A stretch of 64,000 nucleotides of DNA. It comes from an uncultured Oscillospiraceae bacterium. GTDB lineage: Bacteria > Bacillota > Clostridia > Oscillospirales > Oscillospiraceae. The position numbers and the translations under genes were made by a program. The DNA lies in the NCBI GenBank assembly GCA_947623745.1, contig CANQHN010000001.1, positions 1 to 64,000 on the forward strand. Direction: 5' to 3'. Within the stretch, counting starts at the first letter, position 1, and every line of letters begins with the position of its first letter. The notes beneath the pieces are model-generated. The model was not told the origin of the DNA and did not search any database. It saw only the letters and a list, made by a program, of their open reading frames with translations. Of the stretch, positions 50,653 to 64,000 are shown in pieces.

Positions 50653-52350
50653 ATGGACAGGGCCCGCAAATGGGGCTGCATCGCGGCCTTTGTGCTGATC
50701 TGCCTGCTGGCTATCAACTTTTTAGGGCGCTTCACCAACGCGGACACGCCTCTGCTGGGCATGGTCGGATGGGAGAACGCCGAGATCAAAGGGGTGGACG
50801 GCGCCGTCCGGCCGGTGGACATCGGCGCCGGCCAGGATTCCTGGAATTTGAAAGCGGGGGAACAGTTCCGCCTCACCTGTACCCTGCCGGAGGAAGGCGT
50901 GATCCCCGGTCTCTACGAGGACGCCTACCTGCTCATGGAGACGGGGAGCGGCGAGACGGTCATCCTCCTGGACGGGGAGGAGTATCTCCGCTGCGGCACC
51001 CGGGATATGGGGCAGGACCTGAACTTCCAGCAGCTCCACCTCACCCTCCCGCCGGACGCCGCCGGCAAGGAGCTGGCCGTTCTGTTCACCCCCAGCGGAG
51101 CGGAGAACTATGTGACGCCCGCCTTCGCCCGGTACTCCAGCGAGTACGCCAAAGACGCCGCGTCGGCCGCCACCTATAACCAGGCCGCCCTCCCCGCCGG
51201 GGCCTACTCCCTGGGTCTTGTGCTGGTGTGCGCCATCTTCCTGGTGGGGCTGGCCGGAGGGGTCCCTGACTGGAGTCTAATCCTGCTGGCCGCCGCCTTC
51301 TCCCTCACCACCGCCAATGGGATCGCCATTTCCTCCGGCTACTATTTCCTCTCTCCCGGTCCGTATCACTTCCTGACGGCGGAATACCTGCCCCTGGCCT
51401 CCACCGTCCTGCTGCTGGTGTATCTGCTCCTCAACCGGAAGCAGTCCTTCTGGCGCTATCTCGGCCTGGTCTCCCTGGGGACTTTGGCGGCGGCTGCGGT
51501 GTACTTCGTGTACTCCAACATGACCGACGGACACTTCGCCTCCAGCCTGATCCATGTGCTCTCCGCGGCCCTGGAGGGGTATCCCCGCTCGCTGCTGAGC
51601 TGGCTGAACACCTACCTGCTGGCGGCCTGCGGCTGCATCGCGGCCTATGGCCTGCTCCAAAACCTGGTCCGCACCAAAAGTGAGGTGAGGGTCCTGTCCC
51701 TCAAAAACAACCTCATCATGGATAACTACCACACGATCCAGCAGAACCTCACCAACACCGCCGCCCTGCGCCACGACCTGAACAACCAGCTCACCGCCCT
51801 GCGCCTGCTGTATGAAAAGGGGGACCTGGAGGGGCTGGGCCACCGTCTGGGGGAGATGGGGCAGGAGATGGAGCAGCTGAAGCTGCCCAGCTACTCCGAC
51901 CACTTCACCGTCAACGCCCTGCTTCAGAACGCCGCGGCCCGGGCCGCCCGGATGAAGATCCGCTTCCAGGCCCGCGCCCCCCTGCCGGCCGAGCTGCCGG
52001 TGGACGAGGGGGACCTGTGCAGCCTACTGACGAACCTGCTGGACAACGCCCTGGAGGCCGCCGGACAGGTGGCGGACCCGGGGGAGCGCTCCGTGTCGGT
52101 CTCCCTCCAGGTCAGCCAGGGATTCCTGGCCATCAGCTGCCGCAACCGGTATGACGGCAAGCTGACCCTGGACGAAAAGGGCTGGCCTCAGACCACCAAG
52201 GAGGACCAGAACAGCCATGGCTTCGGCCTGCGGCAGATGGAGGCCATCGCGCGGAAATACTCCAGCAAGCTGGAGCTGAGCTACGACGGGGACACCTTCA
52301 CCGTTCAGACCGCCCTGAAGCTGAAAAAAGCCGCTGTCCCGTCCGCCTGA
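50653..52350 (+). CDS. GHKL sensor histidine kinase with extracytoplasmic and multi-span sensor region
   Basis: A 565-residue kinase. An N-terminal membrane helix (about residues 8-25) is followed by an external beta-rich domain (about 30-175), then five or six membrane helices (about 183-335) in a 7TMR-DISM-like layout. The cytoplasmic part has the phospho-acceptor His374 in ALRHDLNNQLTAL, the N-box TNLLDNALEAA near 460 and the G-box SHGFGLRQM near 525. It belongs to the AgrC/LytS-type GHKL group. A regulator gene lies tail to tail with it. The ligand is unknown; no agrB/agrD-like gene is near. Confidence 0.88.
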   Translation: MDRARKWGCIAAFVLICLLAINFLGRFTNADTPLLGMVGWENAEIKGVDGAVRPVDIGAGQDSWNLKAGEQFRLTCTLPEEGVIPGLYEDAYLLMETGSGETVILLDGEEYLRCGTRDMGQDLNFQQLHLTLPPDAAGKELAVLFTPSGAENYVTPAFARYSSEYAKDAASAATYNQAALPAGAYSLGLVLVCAIFLVGLAGGVPDWSLILLAAAFSLTTANGIAISSGYYFLSPGPYHFLTAEYLPLASTVLLLVYLLLNRKQSFWRYLGLVSLGTLAAAAVYFVYSNMTDGHFASSLIHVLSAALEGYPRSLLSWLNTYLLAACGCIAAYGLLQNLVRTKSEVRVLSLKNNLIMDNYHTIQQNLTNTAALRHDLNNQLTALRLLYEKGDLEGLGHRLGEMGQEMEQLKLPSYSDHFTVNALLQNAAARAARMKIRFQARAPLPAELPVDEGDLCSLLTNLLDNALEAAGQVADPGERSVSVSLQVSQGFLAISCRNRYDGKLTLDEKGWPQTTKEDQNSHGFGLRQMEAIARKYSSKLELSYDGDTFTVQTALKLKKAAVPSA

Positions 52351-52361
52351 CCGCCACAAAC

Positions 52362-52398
52362 AAAAAATGCCAGCGCCGGTTAGGCGCTGGCTTTTTTT
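52362..52398. terminator. bidirectional terminator between kinase and LytTR regulator
   Basis: Stem GCCAGCGCC / GGCGCTGGC with a 5-base loop, flanked by A6 and T7; the T-run overlaps the stop of the minus-strand regulator. Confidence 0.9.
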
Positions 52399-53110
52399 AC
52401 TTATTCGCGTTCAGGTATCGGATAAAGCGGCTCTGGGCCTGCTCATAGTACCGCCTCCCGATGGGGATGGTCCGATCCCCGCACAGCGTCACCCAGTTCC
52501 TGCTGATCTCCGTGACGGCGGCCATATTGACCAGAAAGCTGTTGTGGCAGCGGCAGAACTGCTCCTGGGGCAGGATCTGTTCAGCTTCAGATAGAGAGAT
52601 GGGGAAGGTCTGCTCCTCCCCCGTCATGTGCAGACAGATCCCGTGGTCCCGGCTCTCCACGTAGATGATCTCCGCGATGGGCAGGGCTGACGTCCGGTTC
52701 CCCCGGCGGAAGGTGACCAGCCGGGGGCTGTGATTGATCCTCAAATCGCTGCGCAGGGCCTCCGCCAGCTCCTCCCCTTTCAGGGGCTTGGACAGATACT
52801 GGATGGGGCGGACACTGTACCCCTCCCGCAGATAGGCGTCGCTGCTGCTGATGAACAGGATGCTGGTCCGGTCGTCCCGCTCCCGCAGCTCGTGGGCCAG
52901 GTCCATCCCCGTCTTGCCGTCCATGCAGATGTCCAGGCACAGCAGGTCGAACTGCTCCCGCCCGGAGCTCAGCGCGGCGGACAGGTCTTGGGCGGAGGAA
53001 AAGGGGACGATCTCATGCTCCACCTTCAGCCCGTTCAGGATTTCGCCGCACATCCGGCACAGCTCCTCCAGGGCCTCCCCCTCGTCGTCGCAGACCGCTA
53101 AGCGGTACAT
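52397..53110 (-). CDS. LytTR-type response regulator next to the contractile-system operon
   Basis: A 237-residue regulator. The receiver has AVCDDEGE (Asp8, Asp9), Asp60 in LLCLDICMDG and Lys108 in QYLSKPLKG. The LytTR domain contains IIYVESRDHGICLHM and FCRCHNSFLVNMAAV. The ATG at 53110 is preceded by GGGGGGA. It follows the last operon gene by about 110 bases and has its own promoter. Its natural partner may be the large GHKL kinase encoded convergently. Confidence 0.9.
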   Translation of the reverse strand: MYRLAVCDDEGEALEELCRMCGEILNGLKVEHEIVPFSSAQDLSAALSSGREQFDLLCLDICMDGKTGMDLAHELRERDDRTSILFISSSDAYLREGYSVRPIQYLSKPLKGEELAEALRSDLRINHSPRLVTFRRGNRTSALPIAEIIYVESRDHGICLHMTGEEQTFPISLSEAEQILPQEQFCRCHNSFLVNMAAVTEISRNWVTLCGDRTIPIGRRYYEQAQSRFIRYLNANK

Positions 53111-53146
53111 GCCGATCCCCCCCTTCCAACAGGAAATCCTGCCCAT

Positions 53147-53218: not shown

Positions 53219-55249
53219 TCACGTCCCGCGTCTCTCTTCCAGCCGCTTGACCGCGGTGACCGTGTCTGCCCCGCTGCCGGATTCAAAGAGGACCCGGTCG
53301 CAGGTGCGGCGGACAAAGTCGGCGGCGCCGCGCAGAACGCCGTTTTCCGGGACGTCCAGCGGGTCCCGGCCCCCCATGGCTCCCCGGACGCGCAGGATCA
53401 GGAGGTTCTCCTCCCGGGAGACCATACACTCGGCCATGAACCGGCTGTCCTGGGCTCCTCTGGCCCGGCACAGGGCAAACAGCTCGTCTCCCATGACCAG
53501 CAGCTGGGCCATCTGGCGCTGGGGGACCTGGTTGGCCTGGAACTGGCCCCGGAGGAAGTCCTGCATCGCGGCGGCCCCGGCGGCGTCGCCGGTGAGGACA
53601 CAGTGGGCCTGGGCCCGGTCCCGGCGGCAGTACTCCAGGGCCAGGAGGGCGTAGGCCCCCACCTGGCTGCTGTAGGCGGCAAAGGCACCGCCGTCGTCCG
53701 CCACCCACTGGATCTGCTGGTCCAGGTCGGCCTGCCGGACCCGGAGCTCGTTGATGCAGGGCCGCAGCCGGTCCTTTCCAAAGGTCTGCTCCCCGGCCCC
53801 ACGGATATTGGCCAGTCCGGCGGTGTAGAAGAACAGCCGGTCCCCCTGGCTCAGGTCCAGCTCCAGGGTGTGGTAGGACACGTTCTCGCTCTGGCCCAGA
53901 GAGGCGTAGGAAAAGGCGTCGGCCCAGTCGTACCGCTCCTCCCGGAACCGCTGGAACAGGGGCGTCTGTTCCCCGGCGTTGACGCAGGAGAAGCGGCCGG
54001 TGGTGCCGTCCAGCACCCCCGCCAGCACGTTGAGGCACAGCTCGCCGCCGCCCATCTCATAGAGCTGCTGGTTGGCCGCCGACATGGCCTGGTCCAGACT
54101 CAGGCCGGAGCGCAGGTGGCTTTTCAGGGTCGTCTGGGCGATCACGATGTAAAGCGCCTGGGTCAGCCCCCGGCTGGGGGTCTCCCCGACCAGGACGCAC
54201 AGCCGCTCCCGGTCCAGCAGGAAGTAGTCGTAAAAGCAGCAGGCCAGCCCCTCCCGGCAGCGCACACTGCCGCTGACCTGGAAGGGATAGGGGGTCTCCC
54301 GCTGAGGCAGGGCTTTGGGCCGCATGGCGGCGTTCAGGCCGTTGGCCAGCTGGGTGTCGCTCTCCTGCTTCTGCTCCTGGACCGCCAGCTCCAGCTGCTC
54401 CAGGTTGTTCACTTCGATCTCGGCCAGCATGAGCCGGAAGGTGTCGGCCAGGTCGTTGAGCTCATACCCGCCGTGGAAGGATAGGCCGCTGAAGGCCCGC
54501 TTGTTCTCACCCTCCGAATAGCTCCGGGCGGCGTTGGTCAGCTGGGTGACAGGGATCAGGAAGCTGCGCCGGATGAGGAACAGATAGACCGCAGACAGAA
54601 TGATCGCCGCCAGCGCCACAAGCCGTGCCGCGTCGCTGACAAACGCGTGGACGTTCGCCATCACGTTCTCCAGCACGATATCGGTCAGGACGTAGTACCC
54701 GGAGAAGGTCCCGTTCTCCCGCAGGATCGGTACCCCGGCGGTGATCAGCAGGCCGGCAATTGGGTCGTCGTCCTGGAAGGGGGGGAACTGCTCCCCCCGC
54801 TGGGCCTGCTCCATGGTCAGGGGCAGATTGTCCATTGTCAGGATGCTCCCCAGGCTCTCATAGCTGTCGTAGATGTTATAGGTATCCCCGATCAGGAAGT
54901 TGGCGCTGGCCAGGACCATAGCGTAATCGCACTGGGTGTCCTCTATGGGCCGGATCACATAGATCTGGGCCACCCCGCTGCCGGAGCGCAGGGTGTTCAC
55001 CAGAGAGTCCAGCTCGGCGAATCGCTCGTCAGGCTCTCCGCCCTCATAGTAGCGGTCCAGGTCCTCCCCGGTCAGCTGGTCGGCCAGCGCCTGGGCCAGA
55101 TTGGAGCCCAGGTCCTCGTAGTGGCGCATCAGCTGGTCCGTGTAGCGGTCGTAGCAGACATAGAGGGCGACCGCGGAGAGGACGACGCTCATCAGCAGGG
55201 CCATGCCCATCATCTGAAAGCTCAGGCTGGACCAGAATTTTCGTTTCAT
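53219..55249 (-). CDS. membrane SpoIIE/PP2C-like protein, probably catalytically dead
   Basis: A 676-residue receptor-type protein. Two membrane helices (about 10-32 and 207-228) flank an extracytoplasmic Cache-like sensor domain. HAMP-like and coiled segments follow to about 305. Residues 325-540 align with SpoIIE/RsbU phosphatases, but the metal site is lost: the usual GGDFYD is LACCFYD (335-341), GDVSGKG is GETPSRG (355-361), the TDG motif is TAG (476-478), and the final DD is absent. Residues 545-676 resemble an RsbW-type ATPase fold without the N-box Asn. It is the last gene of the operon, 22 bases after the AAA+ gene. Likely a sensor/scaffold rather than an enzyme. Confidence 0.8.
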   Translation of the reverse strand: MKRKFWSSLSFQMMGMALLMSVVLSAVALYVCYDRYTDQLMRHYEDLGSNLAQALADQLTGEDLDRYYEGGEPDERFAELDSLVNTLRSGSGVAQIYVIRPIEDTQCDYAMVLASANFLIGDTYNIYDSYESLGSILTMDNLPLTMEQAQRGEQFPPFQDDDPIAGLLITAGVPILRENGTFSGYYVLTDIVLENVMANVHAFVSDAARLVALAAIILSAVYLFLIRRSFLIPVTQLTNAARSYSEGENKRAFSGLSFHGGYELNDLADTFRLMLAEIEVNNLEQLELAVQEQKQESDTQLANGLNAAMRPKALPQRETPYPFQVSGSVRCREGLACCFYDYFLLDRERLCVLVGETPSRGLTQALYIVIAQTTLKSHLRSGLSLDQAMSAANQQLYEMGGGELCLNVLAGVLDGTTGRFSCVNAGEQTPLFQRFREERYDWADAFSYASLGQSENVSYHTLELDLSQGDRLFFYTAGLANIRGAGEQTFGKDRLRPCINELRVRQADLDQQIQWVADDGGAFAAYSSQVGAYALLALEYCRRDRAQAHCVLTGDAAGAAAMQDFLRGQFQANQVPQRQMAQLLVMGDELFALCRARGAQDSRFMAECMVSREENLLILRVRGAMGGRDPLDVPENGVLRGAADFVRRTCDRVLFESGSGADTVTAVKRLEERRGT

Positions 55250-55271
55250 CTGTCAGTCTCCCTTCCCCGCC

Positions 55272-57413
55272 TCAGTCCAGCAGGTCCGCATACTCCCGCA
55301 GCTCTTCCCGGACCACTACGATCTCGTTCTTTTTCAGCTCACCCACGGCGGCACGCAACAGGTGGGACATACCGATGGGCGTCCCCTCCAGGGCTGCCAG
55401 GAACGCGGCAGAGAGGACGATGTTTTTGATATGGCCGCCGGACAGCTCGAACTTCTCGGCCAGGAAAGTCCAGTCGATGTCGTCCGACAGGGGGGCGTCC
55501 CCCGGCATGGTGCGCCGGTAGATCTCCTCCCGGGCGGCGGCGTCCGGGAAGGGGAAGCGGACCACATAGGTGATCCGGCGCATGAACGCCTCGTCGATGT
55601 TTCCGATCAGGTTGGTGGCCATGATGCACACCCCGTCGTACTCCTCGATCTGCTGGAGCAGGTAGGCCACCTCCACGTTGGCGTTGCGATCGTGGGCGTC
55701 CTTCACCTCGCTGCGCTTGCCGAAGATGGCGTCGCACTCGTCGAAGAACAGCACGCAGTTGGACTTGCGCGCCTCGGTAAAGACCGCGTGGAGGTTCTTC
55801 TCCGTCTCGCCGATGTACTTGCTGACGATCTGGGAGATGTTGATCTTGTACATCTCCATGTTCAGCTCGTTGGCGATGACCTGAGCACACATGGTCTTGC
55901 CGGTGCCCGGGGCCCCGGCGAACAGGATGGACAGGCCCCGGCCATAGGCGATCTTTTTGTCAAAGCCCCACTGGCAGTAGACCTGATACTGGTACTTGAT
56001 GTGTCCGCAGGCCTGCTGGAGCAGCCTTTTCTGGTCCTCTGGCATGACCACGTCGCCCCAGCTGAAGGCGGGGCGCACCCGCCGGGCCAGGTCGTCCAGC
56101 TTGTGGACCGCCTGGCGGTAGCAGCACTGGTGCAGCTCCCGGCCGGAGATGGCCCCGCGGCCGTCCAGCCGGGCCAGACCCACGGCCTGACGGCAGGCCA
56201 GGGCGATCTGACGGGGGGAAAAGCGGAACTTGGCCGCCAGCTCCTCCACGGTCACGCCCTCCAGGTCCAGGCTGCCCAGGGCGGCCCGGAACAGGCGGAT
56301 GCGCTCCGCCTCGGCGGGGTCTGGGACCTCCAGCTCCACCACCAGCCGGTCGAACCGGGCGTGGGCGGGGAGCTGGGAGAGGAAAAAGGCCCTCCCTCCG
56401 GGCAGGCCCAGGGCCAGGATGCCCTCCAGCAGCCGCTGGGAGGGGGGCTGGAGCTTGCCGTCCTGGTCCGTTTTCTCCATGTGGCCGAAGGCGGCCACCG
56501 CCCCGGTGAGTCGGGCGGCCAAAACGGCGTCCCGGGCCCGGTCCAGCTGCTCCTCGCAGTCCAGGTCCGCAAAGACGCACTTCGCTCCGCTGCGGGCCAT
56601 CAGATGTTCACACTGGAACCGCTTGCCGCTGCCGGGCCCCCCGGTGAGGCAGAGGACCCGCTCCCCCGGCTCGGCAAAGAGGGCGTCCAGCCGCCGGGCC
56701 AACTCCTGGCCGATGACCAGGGGGCCGCCGGGGGCGTCCTTCTTCCCGTCGAAGAGCCGCAGCCCTGCCTGGGGGGCGACGGTCCCGGTGCTCAAAAACT
56801 CCAGCACCAGGGGGTGGAGGACCAGGGCCCCCGCCGCCAGCTTCTCCCGGTCAAAGAGCCCTGTGAAGTCGTCCGGCCGGGCGAACCGGGACAGGTACTC
56901 CTCCATGTTCCCCTCCAGGGGCAGGAATAGCTGCACCGCCAGGGCGGAGGTCGGGGCCTTCTGGGTGATATCGTCCTGGAGGTAAGCCATGAGCTTCTCA
57001 TATTTCCGGTCCAGGGCGGAGGCGTATGCCAGCACCACACAGCCCCGCTCAAACTCGTCCAGGTTGCACCGCCTGGCCAGGGCCAGCAGGGGGAACTCCG
57101 TCTCCGTCCGGTCCAGGCGGGTCTGGATGGCGTCCCAAGAGGCGGCCATCTGGGCGGCCTCCTCCCCGTCCATCCGGGCGGGCAGGCCCAGCTGGGCGGC
57201 TTTGAGCAGGTTGTGCTCAAACTCCTCCCGGGTGACCACCAGACCCAGCATGTTGCGCATGTCGTTCTTGGGGCCGAGCCACTGGTGGTGCTTGTAGAAG
57301 AAGTAGATGCGCAGGTCCAGCCAGGCGAACAGGTCGTCCATCAGCTCCCACTGGCTCTCATACCCCCGGCCCAGCTTCTCGTAGGCCACATCCCGCAGGT
57401 CGTAGTCGTCCAT
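55272..57413 (-). CDS. tandem AAA+ ATPase of contractile injection system type (Afp15/Pvc15-like)
   Basis: A 713-residue ATPase. The first AAA module is degenerate: GGPGSGKR at 258-265 as Walker A and no clear Walker B. The second is intact: GAPGTGKT at 500-507, Walker B LFFDE near 555, sensor-1 Asn601 in ATNLIGN and arginine fingers at Arg612-613 in MRRITYVVRFPFPD. An N-terminal helical region covers about 1-220. This layout and length match the ATPase that eCIS clusters (Afp15, Pvc15) use for particle assembly. The DUF4280 gene ends 12 bases upstream, and the phosphatase-like gene starts 22 bases downstream. Confidence 0.88.
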   Translation of the reverse strand: MDDYDLRDVAYEKLGRGYESQWELMDDLFAWLDLRIYFFYKHHQWLGPKNDMRNMLGLVVTREEFEHNLLKAAQLGLPARMDGEEAAQMAASWDAIQTRLDRTETEFPLLALARRCNLDEFERGCVVLAYASALDRKYEKLMAYLQDDITQKAPTSALAVQLFLPLEGNMEEYLSRFARPDDFTGLFDREKLAAGALVLHPLVLEFLSTGTVAPQAGLRLFDGKKDAPGGPLVIGQELARRLDALFAEPGERVLCLTGGPGSGKRFQCEHLMARSGAKCVFADLDCEEQLDRARDAVLAARLTGAVAAFGHMEKTDQDGKLQPPSQRLLEGILALGLPGGRAFFLSQLPAHARFDRLVVELEVPDPAEAERIRLFRAALGSLDLEGVTVEELAAKFRFSPRQIALACRQAVGLARLDGRGAISGRELHQCCYRQAVHKLDDLARRVRPAFSWGDVVMPEDQKRLLQQACGHIKYQYQVYCQWGFDKKIAYGRGLSILFAGAPGTGKTMCAQVIANELNMEMYKINISQIVSKYIGETEKNLHAVFTEARKSNCVLFFDECDAIFGKRSEVKDAHDRNANVEVAYLLQQIEEYDGVCIMATNLIGNIDEAFMRRITYVVRFPFPDAAAREEIYRRTMPGDAPLSDDIDWTFLAEKFELSGGHIKNIVLSAAFLAALEGTPIGMSHLLRAAVGELKKNEIVVVREELREYADLLD

Positions 57414-57425
57414 GGCGCGCCCTCC

Positions 57426-57803
57426 TTACGGGACCTTGATGGTCAGAGCCGGGGTCATCATAGGCTGGATGATGCCCCCGTAGGTGCACAGCAGCTTACT
57501 GGTGTTGTTCAGCAGGGGCTTCTTGTTCACCAGCACCGTGGGCACTCCCGGCACCCACGGCGCGACGATCAGCGGCACGCAGGGCATGGGGGTCAGCACC
57601 CCCAGGGCCGCCGCGGTGGCCGCCGCCACGGTGGGGTTGGCCGGGCTGGAGCACATGCCGAAGGTGGGGAACTTGTTGTCCATGATGGTGGCGGCCAGCT
57701 GCTTGCTCATCATCACCGTCTGCTGGCTGGTCACCATCAGAGGGCACGGGGCCACCCCGAAGGAACAGGTACACATGGCTGTCATGACCATTGGGTTTGC
57801 CAC
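57426..57803 (-). CDS. DUF4280 PAAR-like protein (putative spike tip)
   Basis: A 125-residue protein with the DUF4280 pattern: MCTCSFGVAPCPLMV, FPTFGMCSSPANPTVAAATA, LGVLTPMPCVP, PWVPGVPTVLVN and the terminal LLCTYGGIIQP. PAAR-like proteins of this type cap the spike of contractile injection systems or carry effectors. The many cysteines may bind zinc at the tip. The start is GTG at 57803 with GAGGAGG eight bases upstream. It is 13 bases after the preceding gene and 12 before the AAA+ gene. Confidence 0.88.
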   Translation of the reverse strand: MANPMVMTAMCTCSFGVAPCPLMVTSQQTVMMSKQLAATIMDNKFPTFGMCSSPANPTVAAATAAALGVLTPMPCVPLIVAPWVPGVPTVLVNKKPLLNNTSKLLCTYGGIIQPMMTPALTIKVP

Positions 57804-57816
57804 GGCGGCCGCCTCC

Positions 57817-58548
57817 TCACTGCAAAGTCAATTCCAGGGTGTTTTCCCCCTCCGCCAGCTCCTTGCTGCCCAGCAGGCCCAGCTCCTCGTGGAAGGCCGC
57901 GGCGGTGCAGGGGGCGCGGAACAGGGCGGCGGCGGTGCCGCCCGGACCGGTGCGGTAGTGCTGGGCGGGGAGCAGACGCTTCCCACGGCTGTGGGTCTTT
58001 TTCAGGGGGGCGGCCAGGGTGCCGGTCTCCCCCTCGAAGGAGCACAGGGTGACCAGCTCGCTGTTCTTCCCGTCCTCCAGCAGAAACGGCGCGGGGGTGG
58101 GCACGGTCTCCGGGTACTTACAGAAGAGCCGCAGCTGATCCTTCCCGGCCTCCGCGCTGGCCTGGGCCAGCTTGATCTCTACGCCGCCGGCGGCAGCCAG
58201 CCAGAAGTGGAACCCCTCCAGCCCGGCGCCGCCCTTCTGGACCGCCAGGTCCAGCCGGACCGGCATCTGCCGGAAGGGGTAGCTCGGCCCCGGTTTCAGG
58301 GTGACGTCCAGCTCCGGGACCGTCTCCCCCGCGGTAAAATCCACCACTTCCTCCCGGTAGCCCCGGCAGCGCAGGACCAGCGTGTGGGGCCCGGCGGGCA
58401 GGTCCAGGAGGACCAGATAGCCCTCCTGCTTGGCCACCGGCCGGCAGGGGCGCCCGTCCAGGGCGCACAGCACCCCGGAGGGGGGCAGAGCGGCCCCGGT
58501 ATAGCCGTCCCGGACCCGAAATACGGCCCCGGCGTGAAAGGCGATCAT
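57817..58548 (-). CDS. Pvc16-associated protein with carboxypeptidase-regulatory-like domain
   Basis: A 243-residue protein. Residues about 10-90 look like a PEGA/carboxypeptidase-regulatory beta sandwich (ALDGRPCRPVAKQEGYLVLLDLP, then TLVLRCRGYREEVVD). The remaining 150 residues include more beta strands and do not match a family I know. Such beta sandwiches are often fused to, or encoded beside, DUF4255 proteins in eCIS loci. Its ATG overlaps the DUF4255 stop by four bases (ATGA), so the two are translated together and probably act in one complex. Confidence 0.72.
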   Translation of the reverse strand: MIAFHAGAVFRVRDGYTGAALPPSGVLCALDGRPCRPVAKQEGYLVLLDLPAGPHTLVLRCRGYREEVVDFTAGETVPELDVTLKPGPSYPFRQMPVRLDLAVQKGGAGLEGFHFWLAAAGGVEIKLAQASAEAGKDQLRLFCKYPETVPTPAPFLLEDGKNSELVTLCSFEGETGTLAAPLKKTHSRGKRLLPAQHYRTGPGGTAAALFRAPCTAAAFHEELGLLGSKELAEGENTLELTLQ

Positions 58549-59147
58549 GACCGTCCCCCCTCCCCGGTGCCGAGCGCGGCCTGGTCGGTCTCGATGGTGA
58601 CGCCGGTGACACGGCTGACGCGGCGCTCGCGCCGGGAGTCGATCTCCACGTTGCCTAGCAGCACCACAAAGGACATCTTGTAGCCCTTCGAGTTATTGTT
58701 CCAAATCTTCAGCAGCTGGTCCATGGAGGTCTTTTCCAGGGTCAGGGTGATCCTGGCCTCCCGCTCCTTCAGGGAGCCGGACAGGTACTGCGCGTCGATC
58801 ACCGGGTGGTCCTTCAGCACCTGGAGGGCCGCGCCCACCATGCGGTACTGATCCGCCTCCCGCAGCTGCACCGGGGCCTTGGAGTGGGCGGTGACCAGGA
58901 AGCGCAGGTTGTACCGGGCGGGCCGGATGCGCTGGACGTCCCGGCTCACCTGATAGTAGCCCTGCTCCACCCCCTGGGTGTCCTCCTCCACCTGGTAGAG
59001 CCAGACGGTGAGCTGGTTGTTCTCGTTCTCATGGGGAGAGCACAGGGCGATGAGCTCCCGGTTGCTGATAGGCTCCGGGGTCAGTGTGTCCCGGAGCAGC
59101 TCCACCAGGGCTGTGCCCGCCTCCACCAGGGCGGTATAATCTGCCAT
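58545..59147 (-). CDS. DUF4255 / Pvc16 N-terminal-like tail terminator protein
   Basis: A 200-residue protein. The N-terminus MADYTALVEAGTALVELLRD, followed by ELIALCSPHENENNQLTVWLYQVEE and PARYNLRFLVTAHSK, is typical of DUF4255 (Pvc16 N-terminal domain). In eCIS this protein caps the tube/sheath end (Afp16 function). The ATG at 59147 is preferred over one three codons upstream because the AAGGAG is only two bases from the latter. It lies 20 bases after the MORN gene and is coupled to the next gene. This is one of the strongest markers for a contractile system here. Confidence 0.9.
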   Translation of the reverse strand: MADYTALVEAGTALVELLRDTLTPEPISNRELIALCSPHENENNQLTVWLYQVEEDTQGVEQGYYQVSRDVQRIRPARYNLRFLVTAHSKAPVQLREADQYRMVGAALQVLKDHPVIDAQYLSGSLKEREARITLTLEKTSMDQLLKIWNNNSKGYKMSFVVLLGNVEIDSRRERRVSRVTGVTIETDQAALGTGEGGRS

Positions 59148-59167
59148 AAACGGCATCTCTCCTTCCG

Positions 59168-61708
59168 TCAGCCCACGGGGCCGGCAGTCTCGGGCTCCGC
59201 TTCGGTCTCACCCTGGGAGTCCCCCTCTTCCTGCCCCTGCTCCTGTTCCGCCCCTCCGGCGGCCGGCACGTCCGCGCTCTCATTTTTCGCCAGCTCCTGG
59301 TCGTCCTGGTTGCGCTGGACCGACAGGTCGTAGAGCACGCCGAAGGGCTCCGCGAACCAGCCGCGCTGCTCCGCCAGGGCACCGCCGGACAGATTGTTGA
59401 GCTGGACGGCCTGCTTGGTATAGGCCCCCATGCTCATGAACAGGGCGGCGGCCGCGTCGTTCCGGGAACACTGGGCGTCGTACAGGGCCAATTTATCCGC
59501 CGTGCCGGTGGAGTAGGCCTGGGTGGTCTTTTCCAACACGCCGGCGGCCCGCTCCAGCGTCTCCTGTCCGGCGCGGATCTCCTCGTACGCCATGCTCAGG
59601 TCCAGGATCTGGGTCTTGAGCTTCAATTCCAAATCGGCCGCGTCCACGTCCCGCGGCTCGGCAGCCACGCTCTTGGCGTAGGCCAGGGCGGCGTCGTACA
59701 GGGCCTGGGTGTCCAGCTCCGCGGTGTCAAACGACGTCAGCACCGCGGCCAGGTCGTAGGCGTCCAGCTTCAGCCCGGTGAGCGTCTCCGCCGTCAGCTT
59801 GGCCTGCTCCCGGCCGGTGCGGTACTGGGCCAGCCGGCGGTCCAGGGCGTCCAGGCGGTCCTGGACGCCGTCCACGGCGGACTGGGTGGTGTCCCCCCGG
59901 TCCAGCAGTCTCTGCTGCTCCAGCAAGTTCTGCTCCAGCAGGGGCTGACTGGCCTCCAGGGCCTGGAGCATCTGGTTGTAGACGTAGTAGTCCGTCAGCG
60001 CGTCCATCAGGCTGTTGCCGTCCTCGGGGGTGAGCATCAGGCCCAGCAGGCGCTCCACGTCCGCCGGGTCGGCGGGGGGCTCGTCGCCGGAGCCGCCCGC
60101 CAGGTTGTCCAGGGTCTGGAGCAGGTCGTCCAGCCGCTCCTGGGCCTGGACCGCGGCCTCATCCAGCAGCCCTCCGGGCACGATGGCGCCGGCGCGGCTC
60201 CACAGGATCTGCTCCGGCGCACCCCCCCGGTCCTCGCTGAACAGGGTGCAGGTGGCCGCCTCCTCGGGGTAGATGATCTGGGTATTGAACCACTCCCCGT
60301 CCATCCCGCCCTCCGGCACGGACACCGGGGACGGACCCGCGGTATAGCTCATCTCGGGCTCCTCTTCCCGGCCGGCGGTCAGCTGGAGCTGGGCCGCCGC
60401 GGCGCTGTCCCAGGGCAGCAGGGCCGCCGCCGGGTCATTCGCCGCCGGGGAGAGCAGGACCTGGTAGACCTGGGGGTCCTCCCCGCTCGTCTGGTAGCTG
60501 CACAGCGCGGTCACACCCAGGTCCGCATTCCGGATCAGGAATCCGTCTCCGCTGTCCTGCTCGGTCAGCGCAGCCTCGCCGAAGGTCTCCCGCAGCTCCC
60601 CCGCGGTCAGGCCCAGCAGCCACAGGCCGTCCAGGGTGCCGTGGTCCATCTGGCCGGCGTAGACGACCTTCCCGCTGGAGGCGTAGATGGTGCCGTAGCC
60701 GTCGGGCGTCAGGTCGTCGGCCTCGCCGTCGTACCACAGCCGGCCTCCCCGGTACCACTGGATGGAACCGCCGCTCTCACCGGCGGAGAATTCCGACTGG
60801 ATGCGGTCGCCGCTGTCCAGGTAAACGGTCCCATCCCCCTCGTAGAGCCCGGCGGAAAACCCGCCCTTGTAGCGCAAAAGGCCCTCCTCGGTATAGTAGG
60901 CCCCCTCTCCCTCGTACTTGCCCTTAGAGAAGGCGCCCTTGTACTTCAATGTTCCTCCGGCGTAGAACTCCTCGCCGGTGCCCTGATAGAGCCCGTCCAC
61001 GAACCCGCCCTGGTAGCACAGCACGCCGCCGTTGTAGCCGGTGCCGGTGCCGTTGGGCAGGCCGTTGGAGAAGGTGCCCGAGTAGACCATGCCGTCCTCG
61101 TCAAAGAGGCGGCCCGTCCCCTCGTAGACGCCGGCGAGCAGCTGGCCCTCGTAGACCAGGACGCCGTCCTCATAGCAGACGCCCTTTCCGCTGCGCTCCC
61201 CGTCCAGGAAAGTCCCCTCGTAGGCCAGCAGGCCCTCCTCGTCGTACTCCCTGCCCGTCCCCTGAAGGACGCCCTCCTCCAGCCGTCCGCTGTACATGGG
61301 GATGTGCTTTCCCTTGTCGGCGTAGACGATGACCTTGCCCGTCCAGTCCGGGACGCGGCTGTCCTCCTGCCAGAACCGGGCGGTGAGGAAGTGGCTCAGG
61401 ATAAAGGGCCACAGCACGTACCAGCACAGCAGCGCAAAGCACACCAGCCCTACGACCAGCAGGATTAGAAAGGATTTTGAGATGAACAGGCGCTGGGTCT
61501 CGATGTAGTCCTCCCGCTTGGTGGGCTTCTTGACCGCGGCAGCGGCCCCCTGGAAGGAGGCGCTGGCCACCTTGGTGGCGTTGCGGGAGAAGTTTGTGAC
61601 CTGGCGGAACCTGGCCGTGACCGCCGTAAACTTACGGAGGAAGAAGGCCCGGAAGGTCCGGATAAAGACCCCGCAGGAGTTCATCAGTTGTCGAAGGAGA
61701 AAGCTCAT
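59168..61708 (-). CDS. large membrane protein with MORN repeats and helical C-terminal region
   Basis: An 846-residue protein. Residues 1-78 are basic and probably cytoplasmic; one membrane span lies at about 79-104 (SFLILLVVGLVCFALLCWYV). Residues about 135-345 hold seven or eight MORN repeats of roughly 21-23 residues (YEGTFLDGERSGKGVCYEDG, YSGTFSNGLPNGTGTGY and others). A mixed beta region reaches about 530. A long helical, coiled region covers about 540-790, and an acidic Gln/Glu tail ends the protein. By the positive-inside rule the repeats are outside the membrane. I infer an anchoring or envelope-spanning role for the injection system. Confidence 0.75.
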   Translation of the reverse strand: MSFLLRQLMNSCGVFIRTFRAFFLRKFTAVTARFRQVTNFSRNATKVASASFQGAAAAVKKPTKREDYIETQRLFISKSFLILLVVGLVCFALLCWYVLWPFILSHFLTARFWQEDSRVPDWTGKVIVYADKGKHIPMYSGRLEEGVLQGTGREYDEEGLLAYEGTFLDGERSGKGVCYEDGVLVYEGQLLAGVYEGTGRLFDEDGMVYSGTFSNGLPNGTGTGYNGGVLCYQGGFVDGLYQGTGEEFYAGGTLKYKGAFSKGKYEGEGAYYTEEGLLRYKGGFSAGLYEGDGTVYLDSGDRIQSEFSAGESGGSIQWYRGGRLWYDGEADDLTPDGYGTIYASSGKVVYAGQMDHGTLDGLWLLGLTAGELRETFGEAALTEQDSGDGFLIRNADLGVTALCSYQTSGEDPQVYQVLLSPAANDPAAALLPWDSAAAAQLQLTAGREEEPEMSYTAGPSPVSVPEGGMDGEWFNTQIIYPEEAATCTLFSEDRGGAPEQILWSRAGAIVPGGLLDEAAVQAQERLDDLLQTLDNLAGGSGDEPPADPADVERLLGLMLTPEDGNSLMDALTDYYVYNQMLQALEASQPLLEQNLLEQQRLLDRGDTTQSAVDGVQDRLDALDRRLAQYRTGREQAKLTAETLTGLKLDAYDLAAVLTSFDTAELDTQALYDAALAYAKSVAAEPRDVDAADLELKLKTQILDLSMAYEEIRAGQETLERAAGVLEKTTQAYSTGTADKLALYDAQCSRNDAAAALFMSMGAYTKQAVQLNNLSGGALAEQRGWFAEPFGVLYDLSVQRNQDDQELAKNESADVPAAGGAEQEQGQEEGDSQGETEAEPETAGPVG

Positions 61709-61799
61709 GGGCGAAGATCCTCCCGGTAGATTTCAGGGAAAAACGGCGCGGGGCGCCGGAAACGGTCCGTTCAGGCGCAAAGCGCCCAGACCGCCGCCG

Positions 61800-62192
61800 T
61801 CACACCCGGATCACCCCAATGCGCAGGAGCAGATACACCACCACAAATATGGCGATCACGAGCAGGACCACCTGCGTGATGCGGGTGGCCAGCCGCCGGT
61901 AGTAGTTCGCCGGGCGGTACAGGGGCTGCACGGGGCTGCGGCGCACCCAGCCGTCCGCCGCCGGCTGGACCGGGGGCGGCGTCGTGGGGACGGTCCCGGA
62001 CAGCGTCCGGGACCTGGGCTCCGTATTGCCGCCGCTGGGCAGGCTGACCCCCCGGGCGGCCCGTCCGGCCAGCAGGTGGGCCCGGTTCACCAGGCTGGTC
62101 TCCCTGCGCAGGTCCGCGGCGGCCCGGTTCATCTGATTGCGCGCCGCCGCCTCGGTCTGGCGGCGGATGGACTCCAGTTGTGTGAGCGCCAT
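61800..62192 (-). CDS. tail-anchored small membrane protein
   Basis: A 130-residue protein. Residues 1-60 are helical and charged (MALTQLESIRRQTEAAARNQMN). A Pro/Thr/Ser-rich linker follows to about 85, then a basic patch (YRPANYYRRLATRI). A single C-terminal helix (VVLLVIAIFVVVYLLLRIG) forms the tail anchor. The ATG at 62192 has GGAGGGGG upstream; an earlier in-frame start lacks one. It sits 27 bases after the cyclase-like gene. Function unknown; a link between machine and membrane is possible. Confidence 0.7.
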   Translation of the reverse strand: MALTQLESIRRQTEAAARNQMNRAAADLRRETSLVNRAHLLAGRAARGVSLPSGGNTEPRSRTLSGTVPTTPPPVQPAADGWVRRSPVQPLYRPANYYRRLATRITQVVLLVIAIFVVVYLLLRIGVIRV

Positions 62193-62219
62193 AGCGCCCC
62201 CTCCCCTCTGGATCATTGT

Positions 62220-64000
62220 TTACATGGCCCGGTCCAGGCTGGGAGCCTCCTCCGGGTGCTTCTCCATCTGGTCCGCCAGATAGAGGTAGTACCGGGCCCC
62301 GCCGTCGCTGGTGCTGCGGTGGACCAGGCTGAGGAAGATCCGCTTGGCGCGGGAGAAATCCCCGCCGTACAGGGCGTAGACCCCCTCGGCAAAGCGCTCC
62401 CGGGTCTGCTCCTTGAACTTTCGGATGTCGTAGGGGTCGCCGTCAAATATCTCGTAGGTGCGGATCTGCATATCCCCGTCCACGCACTTGCCCACGTAGC
62501 GGCTGGCGTAGCCCTCCGCCCCGGCGGCAACCGCCTCGGTACAAAGGATGTTGGCCTCCAGCCGGCCGCACAGCTCCAGCAGGCGCCGGGCGGCGGAGAA
62601 GCTGGCCGAGATGGAGGTGGGCTCGATCTGGTTCTCGTCCCCCACCACGCCCAGGATGACGTTGCCCTCGTCCAGCGCGATGCGGGCGGACACCCGGGGC
62701 CGGCCCTCGGCCTCCCGCTGGGCGTTGATCTCCAGAATCTCCTGCTGGACGGCCACGGCGGTGCTCACAGCCGCCGCGCTGCCCCCCTCAAACACGGCGT
62801 CGTAGCCGCTGTAGGCGAAGTTGAACACCGTGCCCCCCTTGCCGGTGACGATGGAGGCGGTGCGCTCGATGATCTCATTCACATTGTCGAACAGCTCCCG
62901 GCCGCTGCTCCCGTAGACCTCCTCCGGGAACCGGAAGGAGAAGGTCATGGCGGCCAGATGCCGGGTGACAAAGGTGTGCTTATCCACCTGGGCGATGGAC
63001 TGCTTGCCCAGCAGGGACAGCACCCGCTCCGGCACGAACCGGCGGTAGGCCTGTTCCACCCGCCGGTGCCGCTCCTCCAGTGTGCCGATGGCATTGGACA
63101 GGGCGTTCAGGTCATCCGCAAGGCTGGTCAGCTCGTCGCCGCCGCTCTGATGGACGGAGATGTCCCGCTCCCCGGAGGCGAGGGCCTCCATGCCCGCCAT
63201 CACCTTCCGCAGACCTATGGTGATCCGGCACAGGATAGCCACCGCCAGGGCGGTGAACAGGATGGCCAGGGCGGCCAGCTCCCGGACGGTCCAGAACACG
63301 TGGGCGCGGCTGTGGGCGAGCAGGCTGTCCCCGCTCACATCCATAGCCAGCACCTGCCCGTCAAGGGACAGATAGTACAGGAATCGCAGGCTGTCCCCGG
63401 CACCCAGGGTGCCGAAGGAGGACCCCCGGGTCAGAGCCTGCTGGGCTAGGTCCCGGTCGAAGCCGGGGCACATCTCGCCCCGGATCCCCGCCGGCCTCCC
63501 GGCGCTGTCGGACACCAGACGCCACAGCATGTCCTCGTCCCGCTCAAACACGGCGGCCTGGGCGTCCCGGTAGGTCCCGCCCTCGACATGGGCCAGGCTG
63601 GTGCCGATGCGCTGCGTCAGGTCCAGGGCGGACGGGCCCTCGTCCATAGACAGACGGGCGACGGCGCTGAGCATCTCCTGGGCCTCCCGCTCCGATGCGG
63701 TCCGGATGGCGACAGGGGCGGACAGCCGGGCCAGCCCGGTCACCGCCAGCACGGCCACCGCGGCGGTCAGCACCCCCCACCGCACCAGCAGGGGCAGGCG
63801 CAGCCGCCGCACCTCACACACGACGTACCACAGGACCAGGGAGACCAGCAGGACCCCCGCGGTCAGCCCCGCCAGGATCAGCCAGCACTGCCAGTCCGGC
63901 CGGTGGAGCATCTCCGACAGGTCGGTCACGCTCTCCCCCTGGTCCAGGAGGATGCGCCTGCCCTCCAACAGCAGCAGGACGCTGCCGCCGGAGTCGACGG
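62220..64000 (-). CDS. membrane receptor with degenerate class III adenylate/guanylate cyclase domain (cut by window edge)
   Basis: The frame is open through the right edge; about 593 residues are visible. Two hydrophobic segments (nt about 63880 and 63780) precede an external domain of about 140 residues; then another helix, a HAMP-like linker and RRFVPERVLSLLGKQSI, the usual lead-in to a class III cyclase domain. In that domain the metal aspartates are missing: the FSDIR-type motif is FSFRF (nt 62928-62942) and the GDA motif is SGYDAVF (nt about 62795-62810). The transition-state Asn of VNLAxR is also replaced (SFSAARR). About 70 residues follow, resembling a TPR. It is probably a signal-binding pseudo-cyclase. 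It is the first visible operon member. Confidence 0.78.
   Translation of the reverse strand, partial: VDSGGSVLLLLEGRRILLDQGESVTDLSEMLHRPDWQCWLILAGLTAGVLLVSLVLWYVVCEVRRLRLPLLVRWGVLTAAVAVLAVTGLARLSAPVAIRTASEREAQEMLSAVARLSMDEGPSALDLTQRIGTSLAHVEGGTYRDAQAAVFERDEDMLWRLVSDSAGRPAGIRGEMCPGFDRDLAQQALTRGSSFGTLGAGDSLRFLYYLSLDGQVLAMDVSGDSLLAHSRAHVFWTVRELAALAILFTALAVAILCRITIGLRKVMAGMEALASGERDISVHQSGGDELTSLADDLNALSNAIGTLEERHRRVEQAYRRFVPERVLSLLGKQSIAQVDKHTFVTRHLAAMTFSFRFPEEVYGSSGRELFDNVNEIIERTASIVTGKGGTVFNFAYSGYDAVFEGGSAAAVSTAVAVQQEILEINAQREAEGRPRVSARIALDEGNVILGVVGDENQIEPTSISASFSAARRLLELCGRLEANILCTEAVAAGAEGYASRYVGKCVDGDMQIRTYEIFDGDPYDIRKFKEQTRERFAEGVYALYGGDFSRAKRIFLSLVHRSTSDGGARYYLYLADQMEKHPEEAPSLDRAM

Follow-up and report, generated by a model that had tools for sequence, protein, structure and literature searches.

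A contractile injection system of an uncultured Oscillospiraceae bacterium with a conserved membrane module of apparently dead signalling enzymes

Background

The contractile injection system (CIS) of Streptomyces coelicolor requires for its firing a membrane protein, CisA, which is encoded just after the baseplate genes and was described with a substrate-binding-like domain (PMC12237407). In haloarchaea, a contact-dependent mode of the type VI secretion system (T6SS) kind was accompanied by a putative membrane anchor, and Cis11 was placed by the same authors nearest to Bacillota representatives (PMC11566945). Comparable components in the literature examined amounted to these two, i.e. one membrane protein (CisA, PMC12237407) and one putative archaeal anchor (PMC11566945). 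How phage-tail-like machines are held and fired in Gram-positive bacteria without the canonical T6SS membrane complex is the open question addressed here, with a CIS from an uncultured Oscillospiraceae bacterium (GenBank assembly GCA_947623745.1). The stretch analysed (the window) comprises the first 64000 bases of the 184,994-base contig CANQHN010000001.1, in a genome of 3.05 Mb; contig and window share their numbering.

The particle itself is of a known kind and the new part is a membrane module of apparently dead signalling enzymes. We read the locus as a complete CIS of a gut clostridium that is most likely anchored at the cytoplasmic membrane, with receptors acting as its gate, and give this reading a probability of roughly 55%. 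An earlier examination of the window from its letters alone (the original prediction) had proposed an injection operon running past position 64000 and mixed with membrane and signalling proteins.

The membrane module

All eight consecutive minus-strand genes predicted between 53219 and 64000 were recovered when the sequence and its open reading frames (ORFs) were re-read, with equally small gaps (22, 12, 13, -4, 11, 91 and 3 bases, counted from the SpoIIE-like gene upward). Pfam searches bore out their hallmark domains, i.e. AAA (2e-33), DUF4280 (1.3e-25) and Pvc16_N/DUF4255 (1.1e-26), as well as the membrane and signalling domains SpoIIE (6.7e-17), MORN (2.7e-6) and HAMP (2e-5, in the in-window part of the cyclase-like protein). 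The module stands between the baseplate genes and those of the cap and ATPase, with a pseudo-phosphatase receptor after the ATPase and a pseudo-receiver upstream of the sheath.

The module genes all lie on the minus strand. The Cis13-type protein u601 (65599-67404) and the kinase-like u242 (64841-65569) are followed by a pseudo-cyclase receptor, cyc (62220-64844, past the window edge at 64000), whose 874 amino acids (aa) comprise four predicted transmembrane (TM) helices, a HAMP domain and a cyclase-like domain in which the first metal Asp is missing. Of the cyclase-like receptor announced earlier, the receptor gene with its HAMP domain stood, while Pfam gave no cyclase domain in the in-window part of this gene, which the window edge cuts. 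Then come a tail-anchored protein (TA, 138 aa, 61800..62216), recognised by hydropathy and motif and ending in a C-terminal TM helix, and the MORN membrane protein (846 aa, 59168..61708; Pfam OEP 1.2e-5), with a probably cytoplasmic N-terminal stretch, a predicted TM helix at 81-99, MORN repeats and a C-terminal part with a weak OEP-like match. The SpoIIE-like receptor (676 aa, 53219..55249; HAMP 0.0085, below cut-off) has predicted TM helices at 14-32 and 200-218 with a probably extracellular part between them, a HAMP-like region and a degenerate PP2C domain. A stand-alone receiver-like gene lies at 87403-87768.

Conservation of the module

Across Clostridia, Oscillospirales and Lachnospirales among them, the set Cis13-type, kinase-like, cyc and MORN recurred with its gene order almost unchanged. 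A scan with a u601 alignment, covering 84,980 species by a single genome apiece, gave at least 478 confirmed relatives, of which the best 80 loci were used (the named loci). Profiles were built from these and ten relatives. Among 93 sources (80 named loci, 10 relative loci, Haloferax, Paenibacillus and the window), u601 was found in 92, cyc in 83, u242 in 82, MORN in 78 and TA in 51. Enough flank (i.e. reaching the Pvc16, DUF4280 or ATPase gene) was available for 63 of the 80 named loci: cyc and MORN were present in all 63, u242 in 61, TA in 42 and the gene for a small Ig-like protein in 61. Where u601, u242, cyc, MORN and Pvc16 were all found, they followed each other in that order on one strand in 52 of 57 loci. 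In type A loci the membrane genes lie between baseplate and cap genes.

Since they were chosen by likeness to u601, the named loci are not a fair sample. An even sample of the phylum (398 genomes) was therefore also considered, in which u601 matches occurred in 21 genomes: nine long ones (including the window), four of the N-terminus only and eight of the C-terminal tail only. Eleven loci were fetched (the eight other long ones and three of the four N-terminal-only ones), one of the long ones ending at a contig edge. MORN was present in all seven long-u601 loci with enough flank, u242 in five and cyc in four, with one of the cyc matches lying in an ORF of only 309 aa. The two loci with neither u242 nor cyc (L216 and L217) carried beside u601 a sensor-like part, identified by eye, fused to an MFS domain, together with an ABC_sub_bind protein, and had MORN on the opposite strand. 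CisA of Streptomyces is likewise described with a substrate-binding-like domain (PMC12237407).

No u242, cyc or MORN was seen in the fetched stretches of the three N-terminal-only loci, nor in the fetched CIS loci of Haloferax, Paenibacillus, Cereibacter, Streptomyces cadmiisoli and Deinococcus. The Haloferax plasmid CIS shares core genes with the window CIS but has none of these three in the 41.7 kb fetched.

The original prediction had suggested comparing the gene set across Oscillospirales genomes, and the module indeed recurred there in conserved position and order. Dozens of genomes show this gene order again, so the cluster is not a chance assembly, and this conservation supports the view that the membrane and signalling genes belong to the machine rather than being passengers.

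Carriage was surveyed in 149 genomes, including the window's own and partly drafts. A sheath was found in 15, DUF4157 in 12 and both in eight (Fisher p 5e-7), leaving four genomes with DUF4157 and no sheath match and seven with a sheath and no DUF4157. Strong u242 matches (E <1e-30) occurred in seven genomes; six also had a sheath and the seventh (G074) had MORN and DUF4157 matches. The u242 of types B and C is divergent and escapes the profile used in this survey. The SpoIIE profile, because of HAMP, also picks up the pseudo-cyclase, so no counts were taken from it; likewise, the MORN matches (28 of 149 genomes) mix true relatives with unrelated MORN proteins and were not taken as prevalence.

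A genome of the same genus (G009) contained two CIS clusters of different gene order, of types A and B (L040/L041 and L048/L049). A metagenome-assembled genome labelled Bacteroidales (L135) carried relatives of u601, u242, MORN and cyc, through either transfer or misbinning. This CIS is also present in a cultured strain from the human gut whose genome is complete, Anaerotruncus colihominis DSM 17241 (L126, L179, L180), a possible test organism.

Active sites and selection

Motifs are named here after the canonical phosphatase, kinase and cyclase sites. The cyc profile, aligned from 66 of 72 untruncated relatives, matched adenylate cyclase 2w01 (5.3e-9) and HAMP/chemoreceptor parts in a PDB profile search. 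Yet the first metal Asp was found in none of the 66 sequences, the second in 31 and the transition-state Asn in eight. Plain cyclic-nucleotide signalling by cyc was dropped on these counts.

The SpoIIE-like set consisted of the window protein and 30 relatives, from a search of 40 genomes; for 21 of the 30, the flank that was fetched includes the ATPase gene. In the window protein ACCFYD, GETPSRG and YTAG replace GGDFYD, DVSGKG and YTDG, with similar losses in the 30 relatives. Asp occupied the three PP2C metal sites in one, one and two of the 31 sequences, and all three together in none (0/31), after which a plain phosphatase or partner-switch reading was abandoned. A built-in control came from Flavonifractor An10 and An306, where a second SpoIIE copy directly downstream keeps GGDFYD, DVSGKG and YTDG. 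Second copies also stand in L184 and L185.

For u242, 16 of the 22 matches up to E 10 in a PDB profile search were protein kinases, the best at 0.017, and a Pfam scan of 72 members gave no kinase family. Of four weak genome matches of u242, the one checked (G012:C84, 4.7e-5) fell inside a Pfam kinase domain, and hhalign against a single kinase, taken from one of 20 fetched loci and therefore a weak comparison, gave E 0.0011 at 20% probability, with eight controls at 0.005 or worse. If the kinase alignment is right, the HRD Asp and the DFG Asp (D[FYL]G) are both missing from all 72 members (0/72 each). A scaffold of this kind is known from EssB/YukC, a pseudokinase within the Gram-positive type VIIb secretion system (PMC12599244). 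The two may share the pseudokinase-like part, and u242 of type B and C loci and of some Lachnospirales loci ends in a C-terminal TM helix; EssB/YukC nevertheless belongs to a different machine, and membership of u242 in YukC/EssB was unsupported, no Pfam YukC match being found in the 72 members.

The receiver-like protein showed the phosphoacceptor Asp in none of six sequences compared by eye, while three LytTR receivers alongside keep it. Judged from these sites, cyclase, kinase-like, PP2C and receiver domains all look catalytically dead.

The ratio of non-synonymous to synonymous change (pN/pS) was computed on six species pairs of relatives for most genes and on fewer for some; the pairs did not include the window. 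In the closest pair it was 0.032 for u242, 0.059 for cyc, 0.063 for the SpoIIE-like gene and 0.107 for MORN, and 0.024 for u601, 0.109 for tail-I and 0.123 for the second baseplate J gene. In the pair L080/L089, cyc, u242, MORN and the SpoIIE-like gene gave 0.46-0.57 versus 0.16-0.48 for structural genes; the receiver-like gene, in one pair, gave 0.364. All values lay well below 1 (0.03-0.57 over all pairs tested), hence the dead-enzyme proteins are kept under purifying selection in the relatives tested, evolving in places a little faster than the structural proteins.

The built-in signalling of the original prediction was thus half sustained: receptor and signalling domains are conserved in the operon and their catalytic residues are lost, so that any signalling must go through conformation or binding.

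Membrane topology and the Cis13-type protein

Four TM helices were predicted for cyc in 68 of 83 sources, one for MORN in 74 of 78 and one for TA in 49 of 51. The motif DGYxRRSPxQ preceded the TA helix in 34 of 51 sources, the window version being DGWVRRSPVQ. In u242 a helix was predicted in only 12 of 82 sources, located in the C-terminal part in ten of these. A C-terminal u242 helix and a TA gene never occurred together (0/82; TA only in 51, helix only in 10 and neither in 21, some of them cut loci). This mutual exclusion suggests that TA can replace the membrane end of u242 in some lineages.

Cis13 marks the fibre position in released extracellular CIS (eCIS). Residues 17-159 of u601 matched NCBIfam CIS13 (NF053767) at 4e-29 and 102 bits, below the curated cut-off of 370. 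This Cis13-family N-terminus is joined to a different C-terminus with, by eye, an Ig-like end. Neither a solved relative (up to E 1) nor a phage relative (in 50,697 phage records) was found. The domain make-up of u601 would suit either a short fibre or a connector to the membrane.

The particle

The original prediction placed its test in the 30 kb or so to the right of position 64000, where sheath or tube genes were expected. Both were found: the sheath at 83624-85390 (Pfam Phage_sheath_1 1.5e-21) and three gp19-type tube genes at 80788-81207, 81211-81855 and 83094-83573 (Pfam Phage_T4_gp19) with small proteins interspersed. The remainder of the system occupies contig positions 64841-103106. 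Still on the minus strand, u601 is preceded by a tail-I-like gene (67370-68476, weak Pfam match), two baseplate J genes (68517-70589 and 70652-73609; Baseplate_J 4.2e-16), gp25 (73606-74025; GPW_gp25 1.9e-20), the spike (74092-74877; Phage_base_V 1.9e-21), a GPD hub (74877-75971) and a tube initiator with CIS_tube and LysM domains (76006-76734). Between the tube and LysM genes, an Ala/Pro/Gln-rich protein of 1334 aa (76773-80777) may be a tape measure, plug or scaffold; the relatives seen vary in length between 275 and 2397 aa, and their likeness to it is mostly confined to the first ~125 residues. A weakly YbjN-like gene and then u392, both on the minus strand, separate the sheath from the receiver-like gene.

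In the window, the particle genes, again all on the minus strand, are those of a Pvc15/Afp15-type tandem AAA+ ATPase with an N-terminal winged helix (55272..57413; WHD 2.8e-23; P-loops at residues 258 and 500), a DUF4280 PAAR-like tip protein (57426..57803; NCBIfam IglG PAAR-like 7.7e-10, below its cut-off), the small Ig-like or carboxypeptidase-regulatory-like protein (57817..58548; CarboxypepD_reg 0.011, below cut-off) and a Pvc16-type cap or terminator (58545..59156). Together these make up a complete particle gene set (sheath, tube, LysM, spike, gp25, two J, tail-I, Cis13-type, ATPase, Pvc16 and DUF4157), in keeping with the CIS operon proposed. Just downstream of the operon, at 50653-53146, lies by eye an AgrC/LytTR-like pair of histidine kinase and response regulator of ordinary type, whose receiver is intact, unlike the receiver-like gene at 87403-87768.

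As had been predicted, no capsid, portal, terminase, integrase or holin family was found by Pfam in 37 proteins between 53.2 and 102 kb, a scan that left out a few mostly small ORFs. The same 37 proteins gave no Pfam match to the TssJLM membrane complex or to ClpV, the rest of the genome lying outside this search. A canonical T6SS was rejected on gene content, and so was a defence system, since PADLOC run on ten proteins picked up the AAA domain and nothing else.

Among solved structures, the sheath was nearest to 9ezm (Halogeometricum T6SS-type CIS, 6.7e-115) and then to 8bky (Streptomyces coelicolor sheath, 1.5e-105). Both baseplate J proteins had a solved match only to 9gtp of a Streptomyces CIS (E up to 0.01), and the only one for the Pvc16-type cap up to E 0.1 was 9gts, the Streptomyces coelicolor CIS cap, a weak match (E 0.085). 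In a sheath tree of 25 rows from 26 sources (one without a sheath; G050 and a few fragments left out), the 16 clostridial rows, all but x_G145, formed one clade (100/98), and Haloferax, Paenibacillus, Streptomyces, Cereibacter and others fell outside it, with several long outer rows unsure in position.

The Halogeometricum borinquense CIS/T6SS (PMC11566945) thus resembles the window CIS by its sheath, its best solved match, and by DUF4157 effectors, present in both. Its putative anchor is described as one protein with six TM helices (PMC11566945), whereas the window CIS carries several membrane proteins. The Streptomyces coelicolor system is alike in baseplate J and cap and in having a membrane protein gene just after the baseplate genes; CisA, compared here by its description, is however one bitopic protein (PMC12237407), whereas this locus encodes a number of proteins in the membrane or linked to it, among whose domains are receptors and pseudo-enzymes. 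With the eCIS of the Afp/PVC, DUF4157 class (PMC8213781, PMC11297309) the locus shares sheath, tube, spike, gp25, baseplate J, AAA, Pvc16 and DUF4157 markers; to these it adds the conserved module with dead signalling enzymes, and it is known here from its genes alone.

The effector array

Beyond the receiver-like gene lie one plus-strand eCIS_core (DUF4157) gene (88034-89173) and nine tandem minus-strand eCIS_core effector-like genes (89285-101160). DUF4157 was tied to eCIS toxins, perhaps to their loading (PMC8213781, PMC11297309). The genome contained 12 such domains, ten of them at the locus, and all nine scanned tandem proteins matched. They share a leader, M[SPT]Q[TI]YxxRRR, and a HELSH motif and differ in their C-termini, except that E3, E4, E5 and E7 form one C-terminal family (38-46% identity); one array protein gave an alpha/beta-hydrolase match (7.6e-7). 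Similar leaders occurred on DUF4157 proteins of relatives (five seen). The longest ORFs of the array are separated by -86 to 81 bases, which leaves no room for immunity genes between effectors. The array is unusually large: 40 named carriers had between zero and seven DUF4157 domains, with at least one in 32. Beside it, a GNAT-like protein (102204-103106) was identified by eye, relatives of which adjoin DUF4157 genes in G054 and L185 too.

Mode of action

In the membrane-docked machine that we favour, the AAA+ ATPase would help load leader-bearing effectors into the tube (PMC11495950), and the Cis13-type protein would form the connection between the baseplate and three partners at the membrane, the kinase-like protein, the tail-anchored protein and MORN. 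The extracellular sensor parts of the pseudo-cyclase and pseudo-phosphatase would detect a signal, the dead enzyme domains would relay it by shape change or partner binding, and the baseplate would then permit sheath contraction. Such a machine could fire either at a neighbouring cell outside or across the membrane of its own cell, both directions being compatible with the data. The haloarchaeal membrane anchor (PMC11566945) and the need for CisA in firing (PMC12237407), as described in these sources, are the precedents that support docking. A more specific version, put forward tentatively and as possible rather than probable, sees here the Gram-positive counterpart of T6SS: a docked CIS whose trigger complex consists of the dead receiver, kinase, cyclase and PP2C and in which sensors are exchanged between lineages while MORN stays constant. 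The same joint proposal would take the exchanged sensors to be the pseudo-cyclase in most lineages and the sensor-MFS fusion with its substrate-binding protein in others.

Several observations weigh against docking. The TM predictions come from a simple hydropathy scan, a weak basis, and the kinase likeness of u242 is weak. A six-TM anchor was not seen, with at most four predicted helices in the 23 cluster proteins scanned, Hbor_38620 itself and the genome elsewhere lying outside that scan. Among the 63 named loci with enough flank, 21 gave no TA match. The SpoIIE-like receptor is not universal, since type B loci carry, by eye, a MalT/LuxR-like regulator in its place, and the fetched Anaerotruncus colihominis stretches showed no SpoIIE next to the ATPase. 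Finally, the Cis13-family N-terminus makes it possible that u601 is a target-binding fibre, and fibre genes were reported in Bacillota CIS (PMC12923769). It is chiefly because predictions from sequence alone can mislead about the mode of action (PMC12998442) that our confidence stays near the value given above.

The last two of these observations lead to the rival that survives best, a classical released eCIS, which we consider unlikely yet serious. The Cis13-type protein would serve as a short tail fibre tipped by an Ig-like domain, lysis would let the particles out, and the membrane proteins would only control the timing of making or release. The Cis13 match of u601 suits this, as do the DUF4157, Pvc16 and DUF4280 markers, the effector genes without interspersed immunity genes, the reported Bacillota fibre genes and the u601-related N-termini on other CIS proteins, one of them annotated as collagen-like in Cereibacter. 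Yet membrane genes inside the structural operon, as in most relatives, would be odd for mere regulators, and no holin or endolysin family was found in the 37 proteins scanned.

Less probable still is a stress-suicide CIS of the Streptomyces kind, with particles free in the cytoplasm that the module calls to the cell's own membrane when a sensor is tripped; the favoured reading, by contrast, concerns machines already docked in advance. Streptomyces CIS provided the sole solved match for baseplate J and cap and needs CisA to fire (PMC12237407), and tandem effectors without immunity genes would suit self-killing. On the other side, the sheath is slightly nearer to the haloarchaeal contact-dependent system, and large effector arrays are not obviously needed for suicide. 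Moreover, multicellularity is not known in these hosts.

A defective prophage or tailocin would account for the phage-tail core genes and is very improbable, given that the 37 proteins scanned contained no capsid, packaging or lysis families, that the Cis13-type protein lacked any match among the phage records and that ATPase, Pvc16, DUF4280 and DUF4157 are CIS markers. Decay of ordinary signalling genes trapped in the operon, which would explain the loss of catalytic residues in all four enzymes and the L080/L089 module ratios above most structural ones, is strongly disfavoured by the low closest-pair ratios of cyc, u242 and the SpoIIE-like gene versus baseplate J and tail-I and by open frames and conserved order in distant genera.

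Conclusions

As to the undescribed subtype of the original prediction, the literature searched held no description of the membrane module; an earlier mention is possible, the 2019 eCIS classification having been outside that search. CIS of the human gut were reported predominantly in Bacteroidota (PMC12210884). A conserved receptor module within the operon, present also in the cultured Anaerotruncus colihominis DSM 17241 and in Flavonifractor strains, makes the question of the trigger testable. With its four apparent pseudo-enzymes, all recruited into a single machine, the locus is moreover a natural collection of such proteins, and it suggests an uncharacterised way of holding and triggering injection machines in Gram-positive cells.

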